Virus record (IMG/VR): IMGVR_UViG_3300042691_037807 | Span: 1-21,903 of that record | Length of the DNA stretch: 21,903 bases | Direction: 5' to 3' (one strand) | Source of the DNA: a virus | Part shown: positions 7,365-19,622 of the stretch, piece after piece | Layout of the letters: the number at the start of each line of letters is the position of its first letter | How positions within the stretch are numbered: position 1 is the stretch's first letter | Made by a program: the position numbers and the translations under genes | The notes under the pieces: model-generated | What the model saw: the letters and a program-made list of their open reading frames with translations, nothing else | The model's database searches: none | What the model was told of the DNA's origin: nothing

Positions 7365-10300
7365 ATGGCTTTATCTACTTTTGCCTCTTTAAGAAATAAA
7401 TACTCTACTTCTGATATAACGATAACGGTGGGAAGTGGTGGATCTACAACTTCGGCTTACAGCCTAGGCTTAAGGGTTTTTGGGGTGTCACGAGCGGGCA
7501 AAAATATTAATAGCGACAGGATAGCGGTGTCTGTATCAGCAGGACAGCAAGTCACCATTACGTTAAATAGTACGTTAAGAGCAAGTGGCGAGGATATATA
7601 CAGAATAGGAATAGCAGGAGAAACGACAGGAAATGATGCAGATAGCTATATTTTGGCTGAATTTGAAGCAAAACAGATAAATCAGCAATCAGACATTGTT
7701 TTTTCTCCCATTGTACTTTCTAGAGATCAACATTTTGCCCTCAATGGTGCGGTGGCAAATTATGCAAGTTTACCCTCTAATCCAATTAATGGTACAGCTA
7801 GATTTGTAACGGGAGAAAACAAATACTACCTATACAGATTGGGGGCTTGGGTAGAAGTAAATGGGTTAAGCACTTATACCGTACTAACTACTGAGAAAAG
7901 AACGGCAGGCAAATTATACGGCGGCTGTGATCTCCCTATAATATCGTTAGATACAGGGGAATTTATCCCTATTCCTGCGTATGATGCCACGATAGGAGGA
8001 AATAGCTACGCGCTAAAACTTTGGCTCTTAAACGGAACTGAGGAAGTAGGTGGTGCGGTAATTCCAGTAGGAAATTTTATAGATTTAGAGTTGCTGCTAA
8101 ATGGCACTGCTGGGGACGCTGCGGTACTGTCAGGAAGAGTAACAGTAACAGCATTAGGAAAAATCCGTAAGTTGACAGGAATTTCTACAAATACCAATAT
8201 CACAAGTACGTCAGCCATTTGGGAATACAATAACAGCAACCTATTTGTAGTTCCAGAAAATATTGATGCGGGTTATGCGCTTGCCTTTTCTGTTGTTTTT
8301 AATTTTACAGAGTTATCAAATGGGGATAATCTCAGTTTCAGAATTTACGACAAAGGCTTATTTGCAATACCTGAATCAGCATTAGGGATAATTTTTGGAA
8401 ATGGCATCTTCCCCGTTGCTCCTTATTGTCGAATCGTTCCTAGCCTATCAGGAATCCGTCGATTAGCCGGAGAAGGATTGATTGAAAGAAACAGATTTGA
8501 AACTAGAAGCTCTTACGATACGGAATTGGGGCTTATAACTGACAACACCGCGCAAAAAGTAGTTATTAGTGGTGTTTTAGTCGGGCAAGTTAGAGTTAGG
8601 GCAGGAGGGGAAGCCCTACTAAGCACTGAGGCGGTAAGAGCCATAATCTCTACAGAGCCTGGTATTGCACCTGCTTCTAATTGGTCTGCTCCTGTCAGTT
8701 TATTAGCAGGACAACAAATATCAGTAGTTGTTAGCTACCCTTGCAATAATCTAGGGATAGGCACAATTAGATCGGACTATCCTGATGTAATCGCGGGTAA
8801 TTCTGCGGGTGATTTTACCCCAGTTCGGTTAAGGGTAGAAGTCAGAAGATCAGGAACTATATATCAGCAAAGCAATGTCACAATAATTCCTAATACTACT
8901 CAAACTTTTATAATTAGCTCTCTTGGAACTGCGGGAAGTTCCCCATCTACAAATAGCAGGCTATCATTTAATCTTTGGGGATATTCAGGGATATCAGCCA
9001 GTGCGATCGCGGGGACTTCTAGCCTATCGGCAGGTAGTTATGAGGTTAGAGTTTATTACGAATATCCATCGCCTAATCGCGTTGTTACGGAAATAACTCA
9101 CTCTGTTTTAAACGGCTGCATTTCTGAACTATTGGGCAATTATTCAGATGTGATCAATACTGCTTTTTATTCGGGATTAGTTTCTAGTGGAGACACAACT
9201 AGAAACTATTTGATCAATAAATTTGTGGCTGGATCTGGGATTACGCTAGAGCGGTTATTCGTAGGAGGAAACGAACAAGTTAGGGTATCATCAATAGCAG
9301 GAACTGGAAATGTTTCTAGTGTCGGGCTGTCTTTACCTAATATTTTTAGTGTAAGCAATTCTCCTGTAACGGGATCTGGAATTATAACCGCAACTCTTGC
9401 CAATCAATCGGCTAATTCTTTCTTGGCTGCTCCTAGCGGAGCAACAGGAATTCCTAGCTTTAGAGCCATAAATGCTGTTGATATTCCTAGCTTGCCTGCC
9501 TCTAAAATTGCTACTGGGGTTTTTTCTATCAGCAGGTTAGCAACTGGAACACCCGACGGAACTAAATTTATTAGGGATGATGGGGTTTTAGCAGTTCCGT
9601 CAGGGACTGGGGGCGGGGGCGGTGGGCACTTAATAACGGAGTCGGGCGTTCCCTTTACCCAAAGAAGCAAGCTAGATTTTCGTGGCGTGGCGGTGGATGT
9701 TCGAGATGACCTTGTCAATGACACTACGATTATTGATATTTCTCAAGTGGCAGGAAGCGCGGCGACAATAGCAATCGGGGCGGTGACTACGGGAGCGTTA
9801 GGGAGTGCTGTAACTGTTACCAATACTGGCACGTCTTCTAATGCAGTTCTCGCTTTTTCACTTCCTAGCGGTGCTACAGGGTCCGTGTCCGACGTAAATT
9901 TTCCCCCTCAAATTACAAAAACAACGTCTAGCGGAGTTATTTCTGCTACTTGGTCGTCCCAATCAGCTAATCTGTTTTTGGCTTCTCCTAGCGGTGCAAC
10001 GGGAGTGCCTGATTTTAGGATTATCTCATCAGCAGATATTCCTAGTTTGCCTGCCTCTAAGATTACTTCGGGAGTGTTTTCGATTGCAAGGCTTGCCAGT
10101 GGAACGCCCGACGGGACTAAATTTATTAGGGATGATGGATTTTTAGCATCTTTTATTGTTGAGTTTCCCGTTGTTTTTGCGGCTCCCACGGTGGGAACTT
10201 ATACGCTATTACTTTCTACGATTAAAGCAAAAACTTTAAACGCTATCAGGGTAAAAACCGATAGTGGTACTGCAACTTTTAACCTTAAAATAAATTCTAC

Positions 10301-10457
10301 TAATATAACAGGTGTTAGCTCTATTACTGCTACTACCTCAAAAACAGCCTATAATGCAACGGCTGCTAATGTAATGGTAGTTGACGATGATCTTAAAATA
10401 GAGATTACATCTGTATCTAGTGCCATCAATCTTAGTCTTCTTTTGATTTTTTCATGA
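7365..10457 (+). CDS. Large tail fibre / receptor-binding protein (1030 aa)
   Basis: The protein starts MALSTFASLRNKYSTSD, with no Shine-Dalgarno sequence upstream. Residues 1-170 are a beta-rich anchor or adaptor. The middle (about 170-650) is a succession of beta domains. Residues 650-1030 carry repeats typical of phage tail fibres: GNVSSVGLSLPNIFSVSNSPVTGSG, then two copies of SANxFLAxPSGATGxPxFR...IPSLPASKI...TPDGTKFIRDDG (DNA 9408-9584 and 9963-10139), separated by a poly-glycine hinge. The end is a small Thr/Ser-rich beta domain. It probably trimerises and binds a host surface sugar or protein. It is followed by a 4-base overlap with the lectin protein, so the two are co-expressed. Confidence 0.85.
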   Translation: MALSTFASLRNKYSTSDITITVGSGGSTTSAYSLGLRVFGVSRAGKNINSDRIAVSVSAGQQVTITLNSTLRASGEDIYRIGIAGETTGNDADSYILAEFEAKQINQQSDIVFSPIVLSRDQHFALNGAVANYASLPSNPINGTARFVTGENKYYLYRLGAWVEVNGLSTYTVLTTEKRTAGKLYGGCDLPIISLDTGEFIPIPAYDATIGGNSYALKLWLLNGTEEVGGAVIPVGNFIDLELLLNGTAGDAAVLSGRVTVTALGKIRKLTGISTNTNITSTSAIWEYNNSNLFVVPENIDAGYALAFSVVFNFTELSNGDNLSFRIYDKGLFAIPESALGIIFGNGIFPVAPYCRIVPSLSGIRRLAGEGLIERNRFETRSSYDTELGLITDNTAQKVVISGVLVGQVRVRAGGEALLSTEAVRAIISTEPGIAPASNWSAPVSLLAGQQISVVVSYPCNNLGIGTIRSDYPDVIAGNSAGDFTPVRLRVEVRRSGTIYQQSNVTIIPNTTQTFIISSLGTAGSSPSTNSRLSFNLWGYSGISASAIAGTSSLSAGSYEVRVYYEYPSPNRVVTEITHSVLNGCISELLGNYSDVINTAFYSGLVSSGDTTRNYLINKFVAGSGITLERLFVGGNEQVRVSSIAGTGNVSSVGLSLPNIFSVSNSPVTGSGIITATLANQSANSFLAAPSGATGIPSFRAINAVDIPSLPASKIATGVFSISRLATGTPDGTKFIRDDGVLAVPSGTGGGGGGHLITESGVPFTQRSKLDFRGVAVDVRDDLVNDTTIIDISQVAGSAATIAIGAVTTGALGSAVTVTNTGTSSNAVLAFSLPSGATGSVSDVNFPPQITKTTSSGVISATWSSQSANLFLASPSGATGVPDFRIISSADIPSLPASKITSGVFSIARLASGTPDGTKFIRDDGFLASFIVEFPVVFAAPTVGTYTLLLSTIKAKTLNAIRVKTDSGTATFNLKINSTNITGVSSITATTSKTAYNATAANVMVVDDDLKIEITSVSSAINLSLLLIFS
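9003..9010. other. HIP1 octamer GCGATCGC
   Basis: Single copy of the palindrome that is highly repeated in many cyanobacterial genomes. I see no other copy in the window. Confidence 0.85.
9408..10139 (+). repeat. Two 177-base direct repeats within the tail fibre gene
   Basis: The units at 9408-9584 and 9963-10139 encode 59 residues each in the same frame, both containing FLAxPSGATG, DIPSLPASKI and GTPDGTKFIRDDG. They differ by scattered changes, many silent or conservative. The 378 bases between them carry a poly-Gly hinge and an unrelated beta segment. Confidence 0.8.
9603..9626 (+). other. Canonical G-quadruplex motif in fibre gene
   Basis: G3-N3-G5-N1-G5-N4-G3 on the coding strand, within the poly-glycine hinge of the fibre. 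Fits the G3+N1-7 pattern with four runs. Confidence 0.65.
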
Positions 10458-11173
10458 GTACAATACTTCCCTTGTTATTTTTCTCTAGCAGTGCACCACC
10501 GCCCCCGCCCCCGCCCCCGCCTTCTGATCCTTTTTGGAATGATGTGGTGCTTTTAATGCCTTTAAATTCTTCGGCAGGATATTCTTGCCTTAAAGGTCGA
10601 ACTACTTCAACTGGAACAACGCTAAACATTCAAACAGTAGGAGGGTTTGAATGCTCTAACACATGGGGGTTTGTATCTGATAATTCGTTGTTTGATTTAG
10701 GAACTAGCGATTTTACTATTGAATGTTATGCTAGATTTTCGGCACTTAGCACTCGTAGCGTTGTGTTTCAAATGAATGATGGTCCATCAGGATCAGATCC
10801 GTATTTTCGATTTTTTATGTTCACCAATGATCGGTTTTTCCTTGATTTTTCGCAATCAGGAAATGGGTACGGGTTTGTCGGAACAGATCCCGCTTTTACC
10901 TTTTCAATTAATACTTGGTATCATATCGCTGCGACTAGGCAAGGGAGTAATTGGAGCATTTGGGTTGACGGAATACAAAGGGGGACAACTACAGACAGCA
11001 GAAGTATTAATTCAGTTGGACTAATAAGGATACTGCATGGTGATGTACCAGATAGCCCAGCATCTGATCCCGTGTTTCCTTTTGATGGATATATTCACAG
11101 TATTAGGCTTACTAGAAGCTGTCGCTATACTGCAAGTTTTACCCCTCCTAGCATTCCTTTACCTAGTAGCTAG
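10454..11173 (+). CDS. LamG/ConA-like lectin domain protein with polyproline hinge
   Basis: The 239-aa protein overlaps the fibre gene by 4 bases (ATGA). It begins MSTILPLLFFSSSA, then nine prolines (15-23), then SDPFWNDVVLLMPL, a start typical of LamG/laminin-G-3-type (concanavalin-like) domains in phage tails. Residues 80-235 have the rest of that fold: FTIECYARFS, 'WYHIAATRQGSNWSIWVDGIQRGTT' (about 156-180) and 'FDGYIHSIRLTRSCRYT' near the end. Such domains bind sugars. It probably hangs on the tip of the preceding fibre or on the baseplate. The N-terminal hydrophobic run is short and probably not a signal peptide. Predicted role: adhesion to the host envelope. Confidence 0.8.
   Translation: MSTILPLLFFSSSAPPPPPPPPPSDPFWNDVVLLMPLNSSAGYSCLKGRTTSTGTTLNIQTVGGFECSNTWGFVSDNSLFDLGTSDFTIECYARFSALSTRSVVFQMNDGPSGSDPYFRFFMFTNDRFFLDFSQSGNGYGFVGTDPAFTFSINTWYHIAATRQGSNWSIWVDGIQRGTTTDSRSINSVGLIRILHGDVPDSPASDPVFPFDGYIHSIRLTRSCRYTASFTPPSIPLPSS
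10496..10522. repeat. (CCCCCG)n hexanucleotide repeat encoding polyproline
   Basis: Three runs of CCCCC separated by single G (10502-10518) with flanking CC. Each 6-base unit adds two prolines and keeps the frame. The minus strand is G-rich. Confidence 0.75.
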
Positions 11174-15629: not shown

Positions 15630-16170
15630 GCTTTCTAAGTCTAGAGTTCAAGATTTTTTAAATACTGCTTATAGCAATATACCTAATAAATTTAAACTTT
15701 GGGTAATAGTTGATGGCGTTCCTAGAAAAGTTTTAAATTCTGATGGCTCTGAACCGTTTTTAAGAACAATAAACGTAAATACTAATAAAGAATTAGCTTT
15801 ATTAGATGGCTATAGCTTTGATGCTACTATTTACCGCGCCACGGTAATAGGGGCGATTACTTCAGGCACTCCCCATCTGGTTTCTGGGCTTCCTAGCAGG
15901 ATCAGGACATTTAGCGGGGAAATTAATTCAGGACTTCCGACTGCTAATGATTCTTGGTTCATGACCGAAGACAGCGGAGCTATTAGTTCGGCTCGATTTA
16001 TTGCCCTAAAGCACCTAAAAAGAGAATTAAAATTAGATAGTTTTGATTCAATTTATTTAATCAGAGAACCTGGCTATGTAGTCGTTGAACAACTGTCGTC
16101 TACTAGGGTCACTCAGAATGGAAACCGTAGGGTAACTAGAAATGGTAATATTAGGGTAAGTGTGGCTTGA
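15628..16170 (+). CDS. Virion-associated protein with C-terminal repeat, unknown
   Basis: The 180-aa protein starts at ATG 15628 with AGGA eight bases upstream, inside the start of the divergent gene. It has an N-terminal mixed alpha/beta part (1-95), a middle with SGLPSRIRTFSGEI, and a C-terminal tail of three related short units, TRVTQNGNR, RVTRNGNI and RVSVA. Such TRxTQxG-type tails are found in structural phage proteins close to fibres. It lies 12 bases from the giant fibre gene, whose ribosome binding site (GAGGAG) overlaps its stop region, so they form one operon. It may be a fibre adaptor or connector. The exact role is not known. Confidence 0.65.
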   Translation: MLSKSRVQDFLNTAYSNIPNKFKLWVIVDGVPRKVLNSDGSEPFLRTINVNTNKELALLDGYSFDATIYRATVIGAITSGTPHLVSGLPSRIRTFSGEINSGLPTANDSWFMTEDSGAISSARFIALKHLKRELKLDSFDSIYLIREPGYVVVEQLSSTRVTQNGNRRVTRNGNIRVSVA

Positions 16171-16182
16171 GGAGCCGAACAA

Positions 16183-19100
16183 ATGGCAGACGTAAGAATT
16201 ATTGACTTAGACCTTGGATCGGTGAATGACAATCACCTATTCGAGTCTGACGATGGAAGCTCTTCCTTTAAAATAACTGCCATTGATTTACGTGCTTACT
16301 GCCAGAATGGTCTGACTCCTCAATCAATCGGAATTGCTGCGGGTGTAACGATTGCAGAGTTGGGATATCTAGATGGGGTTACATCATTAATTCAAGCGCA
16401 AATTGACGCTAAAGCTCCTGCCAATAATCCTACTTTTACTGGTACAGTTTCAGGGATTACCAAGGGAATGGTAGGGCTAAACCTAGTAGATAATACAAGT
16501 GATGCTGATAAGCCTATTTCGACACTTCAACAAACAGCTTTAGATGGAAAGGCATCAACATCTGTCACTATTAATACGGCTTCAGGATTGACTGGCGGAG
16601 GTTCTCTCGCCTTAAATAGAACTATATCTTTAGACGTTCCAAGCCTTGCAAATAAAGCTACCCCATCAAGTTCTGATCAGGTTTTAATCTATGATCCTGT
16701 TAGTTCAAGCCACAAAAAGACTACCGTATCTGGGATAACTTCTGGGCTTTCTGGCGGCGGGGGCGGTGTAACCGCTCATGGTGCTTTAACAGGATTAAAT
16801 GCCGATGATCATCCTCAATACTCTCTTGCTGACGGCACTAGATGGACTGTTACCCCAACTGCTAACAAGGTAGTTATTTCCACCGCGTCAGGAGTGCTTG
16901 CCTCTTCTAGTATTTCAACAACTGAATTGGGTTACTTAAGCGGTGTCACGTCATTAATTCAAGGACAATTAAATAATAAAACCGATTCGGGGCATACTCA
17001 TTCAATTGCGAATATTGCCAATCTTCAAACCGATTTAAACGCTAGAGTTTTAACCTCTAGAGTTATCGCTACGGCTTCGGGATTAACAGGAGGAGGTGAC
17101 TTATCGGCAGATAGAACAATAGGGTTAAACATTCCTGGGTTAGCCACAAAAACAACCCCGTCTATTTTGGATGAGGTTTTGATTTATGATGTTTCAACTT
17201 CAACCCACCGACGGACTACCGTATCAGGAATAACGAGCTATTCTGGCGGCGGGGGCGGTGTAACTGCTCACAGCGCATTAACAGGATTAAGTAATGATGA
17301 TCACCCTCAATATTCCCTTGCTAATGGTACTAGATGGACTGTTACCCCAACTGCTAACAGGGTAGTTATTTCAACCGCATCAGGAGTGTTATCCTCTTCT
17401 AGCATCTCAACATCTGAATTAGGTTATTTAAGCGGTGTCACGTCACTAATTCAAGCACAAATAAATAATAAAACCGATTCAGGACATACTCATACAATTG
17501 CCGATATTAACAACCTTCAAGCCGATTTAAACACTAGGGCTGTAACCTCTAGGGTTATTGCTACGGCTTCGGGACTGACTGGCGGTGGAGATTTATCAGA
17601 CAATAGAACAATAGCCCTAAATATTTCTGCACTTCAATCTAAAACTACCCCATCTATTTTGGATGAGGTTTTGATTTATGACGTTTCGACTTCAACTCAT
17701 CGACGGACTACCGTATCAGGAATAACGGGCTATTCTGGCGGCGGTGGTGGGGTAACTGACCATAATGCGTTAACAGGACTAACTGGAGATGATCACCCTC
17801 AATATTCCCTTGCTGACGGCACTAGATGGGCTGCCGATCAAACAGCTAATAGAGTAGTTATTTCCACCGCGTCGGGAGTGCTTGCCTCTTCTAGCATTTC
17901 AACAACTGAGTTAGGTTACTTAAGTGGTGTTACGTCATTAATTCAAGGACAAATAGACCTAAAAGCTCCTATCAATAATCCTGTCTTTACAGGTACGGTA
18001 TCTGGTATTACCAAGGCAATGGTAGGACTGTCCAATGTAGATAATACGAGTGATATAAATAAGCCCATTTCAACTCTTCAACAGGCAGGTTTGGATCTAA
18101 AAGTTTCTAACTCTAGAGTTATTGCTACGGCTTCAGGACTGACAGGCGGGGGAGATTTATCGGCTGATAGGACTATCGCTCTAAATATCTCAGGGCTTCA
18201 AGCTAAAACAAATCCCTCTATTTTAGATGAGGTTTTAATTTATGACGTTTCGACTTCAACTCATCGACGGACTACCGTATCGGGAATAACGGGCTATTCT
18301 GGCGGCGGAGGCGGGGTAACTGCTCATAACGCACTAACAGGACTAAATGCCGATGACCACCCTCAATATTCCCTTGCCAATGGTACTAGATGGGCTGCCG
18401 ATCAAACAGCTAATAGAGTAGCGATTTCCACCGCGTCAGGACACTTATCAGCATCTTCTATAACAACAACTGAATTAAGTTACTTAAGTGGTGTTACGTC
18501 ACTAATTCAAGGACAAATTGACAACAAAACGGCATCTGGACATACCCATTCGATTGCTGATATTAACAACCTTCAAACCAATTTAGATTCTAGGGTTTTA
18601 AGCTCTAGAGTTATTGCTACGGCTTCAGGATTAACAGGAGGAGGTGACTTATCAGCAGACAGAACAATAGGATTAAATATCCAAGCACTACAATCTAAAA
18701 CAGTTCCTGCCAATGTAGATCAGGTTTTAATCTACGGAATATCAGAATCAGCCCATCGGGTCACAACCGTATCCGGACTAACTTCGGGACTACAGCCATT
18801 GTTAGTTAGTGAAGTAACCATAAAAACGATTAACAATCAATCTGTACTCGGCTCTGGAAATCTAACAATTACTGGCGGTGGTGGCGGTTCCCCAACAATA
18901 ACAACTTTGACCGACGCTGCTACTGTCACCCCTAACGTAGATACAACTACAATAGGAATATTAAATTCTTTGTCGCAAAATGCGACAATAGCTAACCCTA
19001 CGGGTACTCCTGTAAATTATCAGGAATTAGTATTAAGAATTACTTCGGCTTCTATAAGGCGAATAGTTTGGGGTTCTGCTTACGCTGGATTATTACCTAA

Positions 19101-19251
19101 CACAACTTCTGGGGGAGGCATTGAAGATTATTTCTATTTTAGATTTAATTCCCTAGACAATAAATTTGATTTAGTGTCTAGTAATCAACCCTCCGACGAA
19201 GTTGAACTATCTTATCTAGTTTCTACTTTAATTCTTACAGGTAATTTATGA
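16183..19251 (+). CDS. Giant repeat-built tail fibre (1022 aa)
   Basis: The start has a strong ribosome binding site (GAGGAG). Residues 1-60 look like an attachment region. Residues 60-880 are a series of modules seen in phage fibres: TASGLTGGGDLSADRTI (five copies), a DEVLIYDVSTSTHRRTTVSGIT block, a poly-Gly linker, the 'HxALTGLxxDDHPQY' block (four copies), and 'ASSSISTTELGYLSGVTSLIQ'. Between them sit one of two alternative linkers, NNPxFTGTVSGIT...PISTLQQ or SGHTHxIAxI. HxH motifs of this kind bind iron in trimeric fibres. Near the C-terminus, TIKTINNQSVLGSGNLTI is a common fibre element, followed by a poly-Gly hinge and a C-terminal knob (about 905-1022). Expected role: trimeric receptor-binding fibre. 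Confidence 0.88.
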   Translation: MADVRIIDLDLGSVNDNHLFESDDGSSSFKITAIDLRAYCQNGLTPQSIGIAAGVTIAELGYLDGVTSLIQAQIDAKAPANNPTFTGTVSGITKGMVGLNLVDNTSDADKPISTLQQTALDGKASTSVTINTASGLTGGGSLALNRTISLDVPSLANKATPSSSDQVLIYDPVSSSHKKTTVSGITSGLSGGGGGVTAHGALTGLNADDHPQYSLADGTRWTVTPTANKVVISTASGVLASSSISTTELGYLSGVTSLIQGQLNNKTDSGHTHSIANIANLQTDLNARVLTSRVIATASGLTGGGDLSADRTIGLNIPGLATKTTPSILDEVLIYDVSTSTHRRTTVSGITSYSGGGGGVTAHSALTGLSNDDHPQYSLANGTRWTVTPTANRVVISTASGVLSSSSISTSELGYLSGVTSLIQAQINNKTDSGHTHTIADINNLQADLNTRAVTSRVIATASGLTGGGDLSDNRTIALNISALQSKTTPSILDEVLIYDVSTSTHRRTTVSGITGYSGGGGGVTDHNALTGLTGDDHPQYSLADGTRWAADQTANRVVISTASGVLASSSISTTELGYLSGVTSLIQGQIDLKAPINNPVFTGTVSGITKAMVGLSNVDNTSDINKPISTLQQAGLDLKVSNSRVIATASGLTGGGDLSADRTIALNISGLQAKTNPSILDEVLIYDVSTSTHRRTTVSGITGYSGGGGGVTAHNALTGLNADDHPQYSLANGTRWAADQTANRVAISTASGHLSASSITTTELSYLSGVTSLIQGQIDNKTASGHTHSIADINNLQTNLDSRVLSSRVIATASGLTGGGDLSADRTIGLNIQALQSKTVPANVDQVLIYGISESAHRVTTVSGLTSGLQPLLVSEVTIKTINNQSVLGSGNLTITGGGGGSPTITTLTDAATVTPNVDTTTIGILNSLSQNATIANPTGTPVNYQELVLRITSASIRRIVWGSAYAGLLPNTTSGGGIEDYFYFRFNSLDNKFDLVSSNQPSDEVELSYLVSTLILTGNL
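16574..18700 (+). repeat. Long degenerate tandem repeats in the fibre gene
   Basis: The DDHPQY block recurs at 16804, 17296, 17788 and 18352. Spacings are 492, 492 and 564 bases (164, 164 and 188 codons). The first, second and third copies have the short GHTH linker between them; the longer spacing before the fourth copy comes from the NNPxFTGT linker in place of the GHTH one. Confidence 0.85.
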
Positions 19252-19622
19252 TTGAAATTCCCACAGGAACCGAACTAAAATACGTCAATTTGACATTAAA
19301 CAATGTCTCATTGCAGAATAGATTCTCGGCGGCTATTACAATAGTTGCCACCGCTATCTTGCAAGATAGCAATAGCTCATCTCAGCTAATAAAACTGGCT
19401 AAAAACGTTGCTAATGATTCTAGTGCAATGCAAATTTTAGTACAGCAATCAATTAAATTTGCTATTTCGGAGGGATTAATTATTACCTCTTCTGCTACGG
19501 TACTTGATAACAAAGACGGGACGTTTGACGACAACACCGTTACAGACTCCTCGATTTTGGGAATTGTTCAGGGACTAGCAGCCAACTCTTCATTACTCAC
19601 AATTTTAGGATACGAAAATTAA
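19248..19622 (+). CDS. Small virion-type protein, unknown
   Basis: The 124-aa protein overlaps the fibre stop by 4 bases (ATGA), so it is translated together with it. It starts MIEIPTGTELKYVNLTLNN. An alanine/serine-rich middle (SAAITIVATAILQDSNSSSQLIKLAKNVA) and a C-terminal end rich in Ser, Leu and Gly (VTDSSILGIVQGLAANSSLL) suggest mixed helix and strand. No Cys, membrane segment or known catalytic motif. Because it is tied to the fibre, a fibre assembly factor or accessory virion protein is plausible. Confidence 0.65.
   Translation: MIEIPTGTELKYVNLTLNNVSLQNRFSAAITIVATAILQDSNSSSQLIKLAKNVANDSSAMQILVQQSIKFAISEGLIITSSATVLDNKDGTFDDNTVTDSSILGIVQGLAANSSLLTILGYEN

Follow-up and report, generated by a model that had tools for sequence, protein, structure and literature searches.

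How does a long, repetitive phage fibre gene come to differ in length from those of its close relatives, and can the segments of its shaft replace one another? The question is raised by a gene in a viral stretch of 21,903 nt (IMG/VR record IMGVR_UViG_3300042691_037807), hereafter called the window, whose positions serve as coordinates throughout. The fibre ORF lies at 16183-19251 on the + strand and its product counts 1022 aa. A sequence-only reading had proposed that this product contains two interchangeable linkers, A and B, and that it grew by recombination of ready-made modules. The present analysis makes it probable that the gene encodes a tiled-cassette fibre, in which recombination between repeats swaps, adds or removes cassettes while both ends are kept.

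Long stretches of the fibre gene are present in two to five copies. A segment of 300 nt at 16749-17048 shares 86% identity with the sequence lying 492 nt downstream of it, whereas 1000 codon shuffles averaged 28% at this shift and never exceeded 36%. The repeat array thus lies beyond chance, and Tandem Repeats Finder recovered it independently (period 492, score 1717). The protein can be read as a string composed of an N-terminus, five successions of joint, cassette and core C, each separated from the next by a core D, and a unique C-terminus (Table 1). This amounts to five linkers, five 'TASGLTGGG' cores (C) and four 'DDHPQY' cores (D). The linker order A-B-B-A-B was recovered as claimed (NNPxFTGT at residues 81 and 598; SGHTH at residues 269, 433 and 785), and so were the DDHPQY spacings of 492, 492 and 564 bases (starts at 16804, 17296, 17788 and 18352). 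Both linkers exist, but at other sizes than the approximately 50 aa and 27 aa proposed for them: measured from joint to joint, A comprises 46 aa and B 22 aa. The difference of 24 aa equals the 72-base step in the DDHPQY spacing, which is indeed set by the type of linker. A length of A exactly double that of B was considered and discarded, as the joints lie 46 and 23 aa apart from start to start and 46 and 22 aa from end to end.

Every cassette in the window is bordered on both sides by a joint motif, L(I)Qxx[LI][DN]x[KR], which occurs in 10 copies (two per slot at five slots) and in 1000 shuffled proteins on average 0.012 times, at most once; as the motif was defined after the alignment had been read, its count in the window is descriptive. 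The pattern as written misses two joints of relative L006 and one of relative L005. Because the cassettes share the same ends, A, B or two As can occupy one slot. 'Shaft cassette with shared joint' is therefore a better term than 'linker', since A can directly follow A and since A and B adjoin without cores between them in other phages.

Table 1. Layout of the fibre gene, in window coordinates
Feature	Position	Strand	Remarks
N-terminal part before first joint	16183..16386	+	presumed virion attachment end
Cassette 1, type A, 46 aa	16414..16551	+	joint-to-joint coordinates; A-unit HMM 7e-31 (HMM built partly from the window's own units)
Core C1 (TASGLTGGG...VLIYD...TTVSGITS)	16576..16743	+	
Core D1 (H.ALTGL..DDHPQY...ELGYL..VTSLIQ.Q)	16768..16968	+	
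Cassette 2, type B, 22 aa, SGHTH	16981..17046	+	Pfam PTR PF12789
Core C2	17071..17238	+	
Core D2	17260..17460	+	
Cassette 3, type B, 22 aa	17473..17538	+	
Core C3	17563..17730	+	contains 89-nt exact match to L006 core after AA
Core D3	17752..17952	+	
Cassette 4, type A, 46 aa	17965..18102	+	doubled in L002 (exactly +138 bp)
Core C4	18127..18294	+	
Core D4	18316..18516	+	
Cassette 5, type B, 22 aa	18529..18594	+	L006 has A in the equivalent slot
Core C5, terminal core	18619..18786	+	clade with terminal cores of L005, L006 and L007, 100/100
Unique C-terminal domain and stop	18787..19251	+	presumed tip

Relatives were collected by a search of viral_contigs, in which 13 loci matched, seven of them close (L002-L008) and six distant. 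Three close loci (L003, L004 and L008) match the window at 100% identity across the aligned length. The fibre of L005 reads A-B-B (671 aa), that of L006 A-B-AA-A (927 aa) and that of L002 A-B-B-AA-B, with a damaged start of the gene, while L007 is partial and ends in B-B. In L005 and L006 the stretches on either side of the fibre gene align with the window in conserved order; hence, the fibre differs inside a conserved neighbourhood. Copy number, which the sequence-only reading had proposed to check, is not invariant (A-B-B, A-B-AA-A, A-B-B-A-B and A-B-B-AA-B), and the number of slots is three in L005, four in L006 and five in the window. Conserved ends around a repeated shaft, the criterion for a modular phage fibre, are present in these proteins of 671, 927 and 1022 aa: the N-terminal part (59 residues compared) is 93% identical to that of L005 and 69% to that of L006, and the C-terminal domain is 83-89% identical in all six pairs of the four phages, while the shaft varies. 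The independent lineages compared are thus four, namely window/L002, L005, L006 and the partial L007. More distant loci (L009-L021 and L033-L037) were excluded from the module comparison, and L031, L032, L038, L039 and L040 were dropped as re-fetched copies of the same contigs. Scans of viral_contigs with alignment A1 and with the L006 protein yielded no further close relatives, and neither did two scans of genome_contigs or a megablast of the whole window against phages.

Whether the modules descended together or were exchanged was assessed with a tree of 14 C cores and a recombination test on 10 units. Both analyses left out L003, L004 and L008 (window-identical, as above) and L002, which is identical to the window except for its extra A and its deletions. 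An account by old duplication and loss alone, deriving all strings from an ancestral string with neither A/B swaps nor exchange between lineages, can point to the first-slot and terminal cores, which track position across phages as vertical descent predicts; core C1, for instance, forms a group with its first-slot counterparts in L005 and L006 (support 100/100). We nevertheless hold this account to be very unlikely. The terminal C cores of the four phages form one clade (100/100), yet the cassette in front of them is B in the window, B in L005, A in L006 and B in L007. Nearest neighbours are mosaic along the units, and in a PHI-type test with the linkers omitted, none of 1000 permutations reached so low a value, whichever of the three window sizes was used. 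Window and L006 match exactly over at most 89 nt, and this stretch lies in unlike linker contexts, in a core that follows B in the former and AA in the latter. Simple vertical descent, the outcome named in advance as speaking against modular growth, is contradicted by the core tree as well: the after-A cores are rejected as a clade (AU p 1.3e-5 when all are forced together; 3.7e-5 without first-slot cores). The label of the linker is mildly clustered on this tree, with 34-36 of 500 shuffles scoring as low, an effect owed mainly to the first slot, which holds A in each of the three phages where it is seen. Core tree, recombination test and terminal-slot swap support growth by recombination of modules.

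The terminal A of L006 shares 93% DNA identity with its own A2 and 90% with its own A3, against at most 88% with the As of other phages, and therefore looks copied within the gene. Between A slots and B slots, the DNA of the flanks is approximately 91% alike immediately within the upstream border, and this likeness drops to 66-69% beside the cassette on both sides. A separate observation concerns core D (window 16768-18516), which occurs in two subtypes, TVTPTAN and AADQTAN; their mixture across phages implies that exchange extends beyond the linkers.

A difference of one cassette is found between the window and L002, whose fibre genes show no mismatches over 2943 aligned bases and are separated by an insertion of 138 bp in L002, exactly one additional A. 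The two As of L002 (A2 and A3) have 6 variable sites among their 138 and an identical run of 100 nt. One of these sites lies to the left of the run, where the single A of the window carries the A2 base; the other five lie to the right, and there it carries the A3 bases throughout. Such an A would be the product expected of a crossover between the copies, and equally of a collapse by a short-read (de Bruijn) assembler. Contig breaks also fall in cassette 4, with L003 ending at 17980 and L004 starting at 18009, and would fit what a repeat or a mixture causes. L002 further differs from the window by two deletions whose lengths are not multiples of three, one of 76 bp near the fibre start (16230-16305) and one of 44 bp in the next gene (19499-19542). 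Its assembly or genome is thus not clean, which calls for caution on the step between A and AA.

That the phage has AA, and that the assembler of the window skipped one turn of the repeat, falls somewhat short of an even chance. The 100-nt identity, the switch from A2 to A3 bases across it and the breaks within cassette 4 of two contigs that are window-identical where aligned all agree with this explanation, but a genuine crossover deletion yields the same sequence, the middle junction of AA is found in only one viral contig (L002), and the AA copies of L006, at 90% identity, are too diverged to have been created or lost by collapse. If the explanation applies, exchange between lineages would remain and stepwise change within a strain would lack its demonstration; a strain that seems polymorphic for A and AA may thus not be so. 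The earlier suggestion of a fibre length that changes in steps accordingly stands in so far as cassette number differs among relatives, while the within-strain step (A versus AA) is provisional, given the possible collapse. At the other extreme, cassette 4 could act as a reversible length switch in natural populations, with one strain always carrying fibres of two lengths, a view that we regard as speculative and unlikely. The identical run of 100 nt would then promote frequent loss of one A from AA, and its regain through unequal crossover, and the breaks of L003 and L004 would be a trace of mixed populations. Such a switch, if true, would matter for reaching receptors through variable capsule or mucilage.

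Leaving the length switch aside, the reading that we prefer is that of a cassette-built shaft, and it starts from the anatomy, swaps, number differences and conflict with tree-like descent observed above. The product would be a long phage fibre of repetitive build, in all likelihood a homotrimer as judged from relatives, with a shaft repeat that runs from a joint through a cassette (A of 46 aa or B of 22 aa), core C and core D to the next joint. A, B or two As in a slot would keep the reading frame and, presumably, the fold. Homologous recombination between similar repeats, both within the gene and between related phages, would swap cassettes and would gain or lose single A cassettes (138 bp) or whole core units (492 or 564 bp), while the tip and the attachment end remain largely constant. 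A likely consequence is a stepwise change in the reach and stiffness of the fibre. The repeats could also be neutral filler with a structural role only, such that differences in number have no effect on infection, which is possible but in our opinion rather doubtful. The N- and C-termini are kept regardless of the shaft, as neutral filler would allow, and nothing speaks directly against it: identity between copies at third positions clearly exceeds chance (A2 and A3 of L002, for instance, reach 93%), but this points to recent copying and is compatible with neutral length.

Where the fibre sits on the virion bears on what its cassettes might do. They may determine how far a whisker near the portal extends, in a collar or neck fibre rather than a receptor-binding fibre at the tail tip, an alternative to which we give slightly less than even weight. 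On the same strand, 1.65 kb and three small genes separate the fibre gene from the portal gene downstream of it, and Rhodococcus phage Weasels2 likewise has two A-unit genes slightly upstream of its portal gene. Among solved chains, a profile of B plus core C matched 9d93_La (E 2.2e-8), a relative that bears the name 'Tail collar fibers, gp4'; the match covers a B-like SSHTHSIANVTGLQDALDEK as well as a GLTGGGDLSANRT stretch. Depositors, on the other hand, label many A-bearing genes 'minor tail protein' or 'tail fiber', and gene position alone does not fix placement on the virion. Searches of solved chains returned no match at E 0.01 for the whole fibre protein, nothing useful for the cassette A profile (best E 0.95, a chelatase) and no match for the core D profile. 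An AlphaFold2 monomer of unit D3-A-C4, based on an alignment of this unit with three other units (four window sequences), gave a meaningless model (pLDDT 31, pTM 0.20). The portal itself matched Synechococcus phages at 27-30% identity by best E-value among the matches listed, which is no evidence on the host.

Several further features were seen in the window. A second long fibre-like ORF at 7365-10457 (1030 aa) has a repeated block of its own (9405-9593 and 9960-10148, spacing 555, 78-82% alike) and is followed by a gene for a Laminin_G_3/concanavalin-like protein at 10454-11173. Short repeats occur at 5175-5219 (10-base unit AATTACCATA, 4.5 copies, 97% matches) and at 16104-16159, where 2.3 copies of a 24-base repeat code for the end, ...TRVTQNGNRRVTRNGNIRV, of the small protein that immediately precedes the fibre.

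The window and its relatives provide a natural series of phages in which the tip is nearly constant and the shaft differs by whole cassettes. Such a series allows asking whether shaft length and composition are under selection apart from the specificity of the tip. As two widespread and mostly unnamed fibre repeats share a joint and can replace each other, the finding would help the annotation of phage fibres. It also implies that short-read assemblies of such fibre genes may give a wrong number of cassettes.

Both cassettes occur well beyond the window. Of 50,697 phage records, 533 contain a match to linker A at E<=1e-3, and these belong mainly to Mycobacterium and Gordonia phages. Cassette B belongs to the Pfam family PTR (PF12789), which matched the whole fibre in three stretches (1.3e-25, 89.7 bits, gathering cut-off 27) and a single B cassette with flanks, including the upstream joint, at 8.4e-10 (39 bits); unlike PTR, B is here one of two alternatives for a slot. 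Against Pfam, cassette A alone had no match, with no PTR up to E 1, and core D had none either. A Pfam Pro_Al_protease hit (1.1e-6) was rejected, as its score is summed over repeats and no single stretch passes, and so was membership of NCBIfam Bgr_08870, which scored 45 bits where its cut-off is 150.

Seven Arthrobacter phages (Beagle, Pureglobe5, Pointis, Odyssey395, MellowYellow, Ranunculus and BruhMoment) combine A and B in one minor tail protein. Profiles placed them in the order A-A-B-A-A in all seven, with B weak (2e-5 to 1e-3), and an H-T-H or H-S-H motif is visible in the three proteins inspected by sequence. Judged by eye, these cassettes end in a joint similar to that of the window, but they stand head to tail without C and D cores, and their number is constant, unlike in the relatives of the window. 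In Rhodococcus phage Weasels2 and Arthrobacter phage Qui (L029/L030), profiles detect A and not B. There the VGLxNVDNTSDxxKP half of A stands on a different front half that carries a QYxRGDKTW motif, and this combination may represent a third type of cassette.

Chain La of PDB 9d93, the collar fibre gp4, presumably of mycobacteriophage Bxb1, resembles the window fibre in the two stretches named above; it has 356 aa against 1022 aa, and the A profile detects an A cassette neither in it nor in any other solved chain. The H-T-H found in all eight B cassettes listed may be likened, on our assumption, to the HxH metal-binding motif of the T4 gp37 type. In the long tail fibre gp37 of T4, Tetart and colleagues are said to have reported in 1996 that duplications of a small domain expand host range, the duplication reportedly lying at the adhesin tip. 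There too recombination alters the number of a small repeated fibre domain, whereas in the window fibre the shaft varies and the tip is kept. PTR repeats also occur in fibres of polinton-like viruses, according to PMC12220804. As described in PMC9437275, the adhesion devices of streptococcal phages follow a 'LEGO-like' assembly in which, as in the window fibre, similar modules of variable number are joined by linkers, but these are carbohydrate-binding modules with collagen-like linkers and other folds. A literature search of open-licence papers found no description of cassettes A and B as interchangeable. Other phage fibres are already known to be built on this principle; what the present case contributes is a set of natural relatives that differ by swaps slot by slot.
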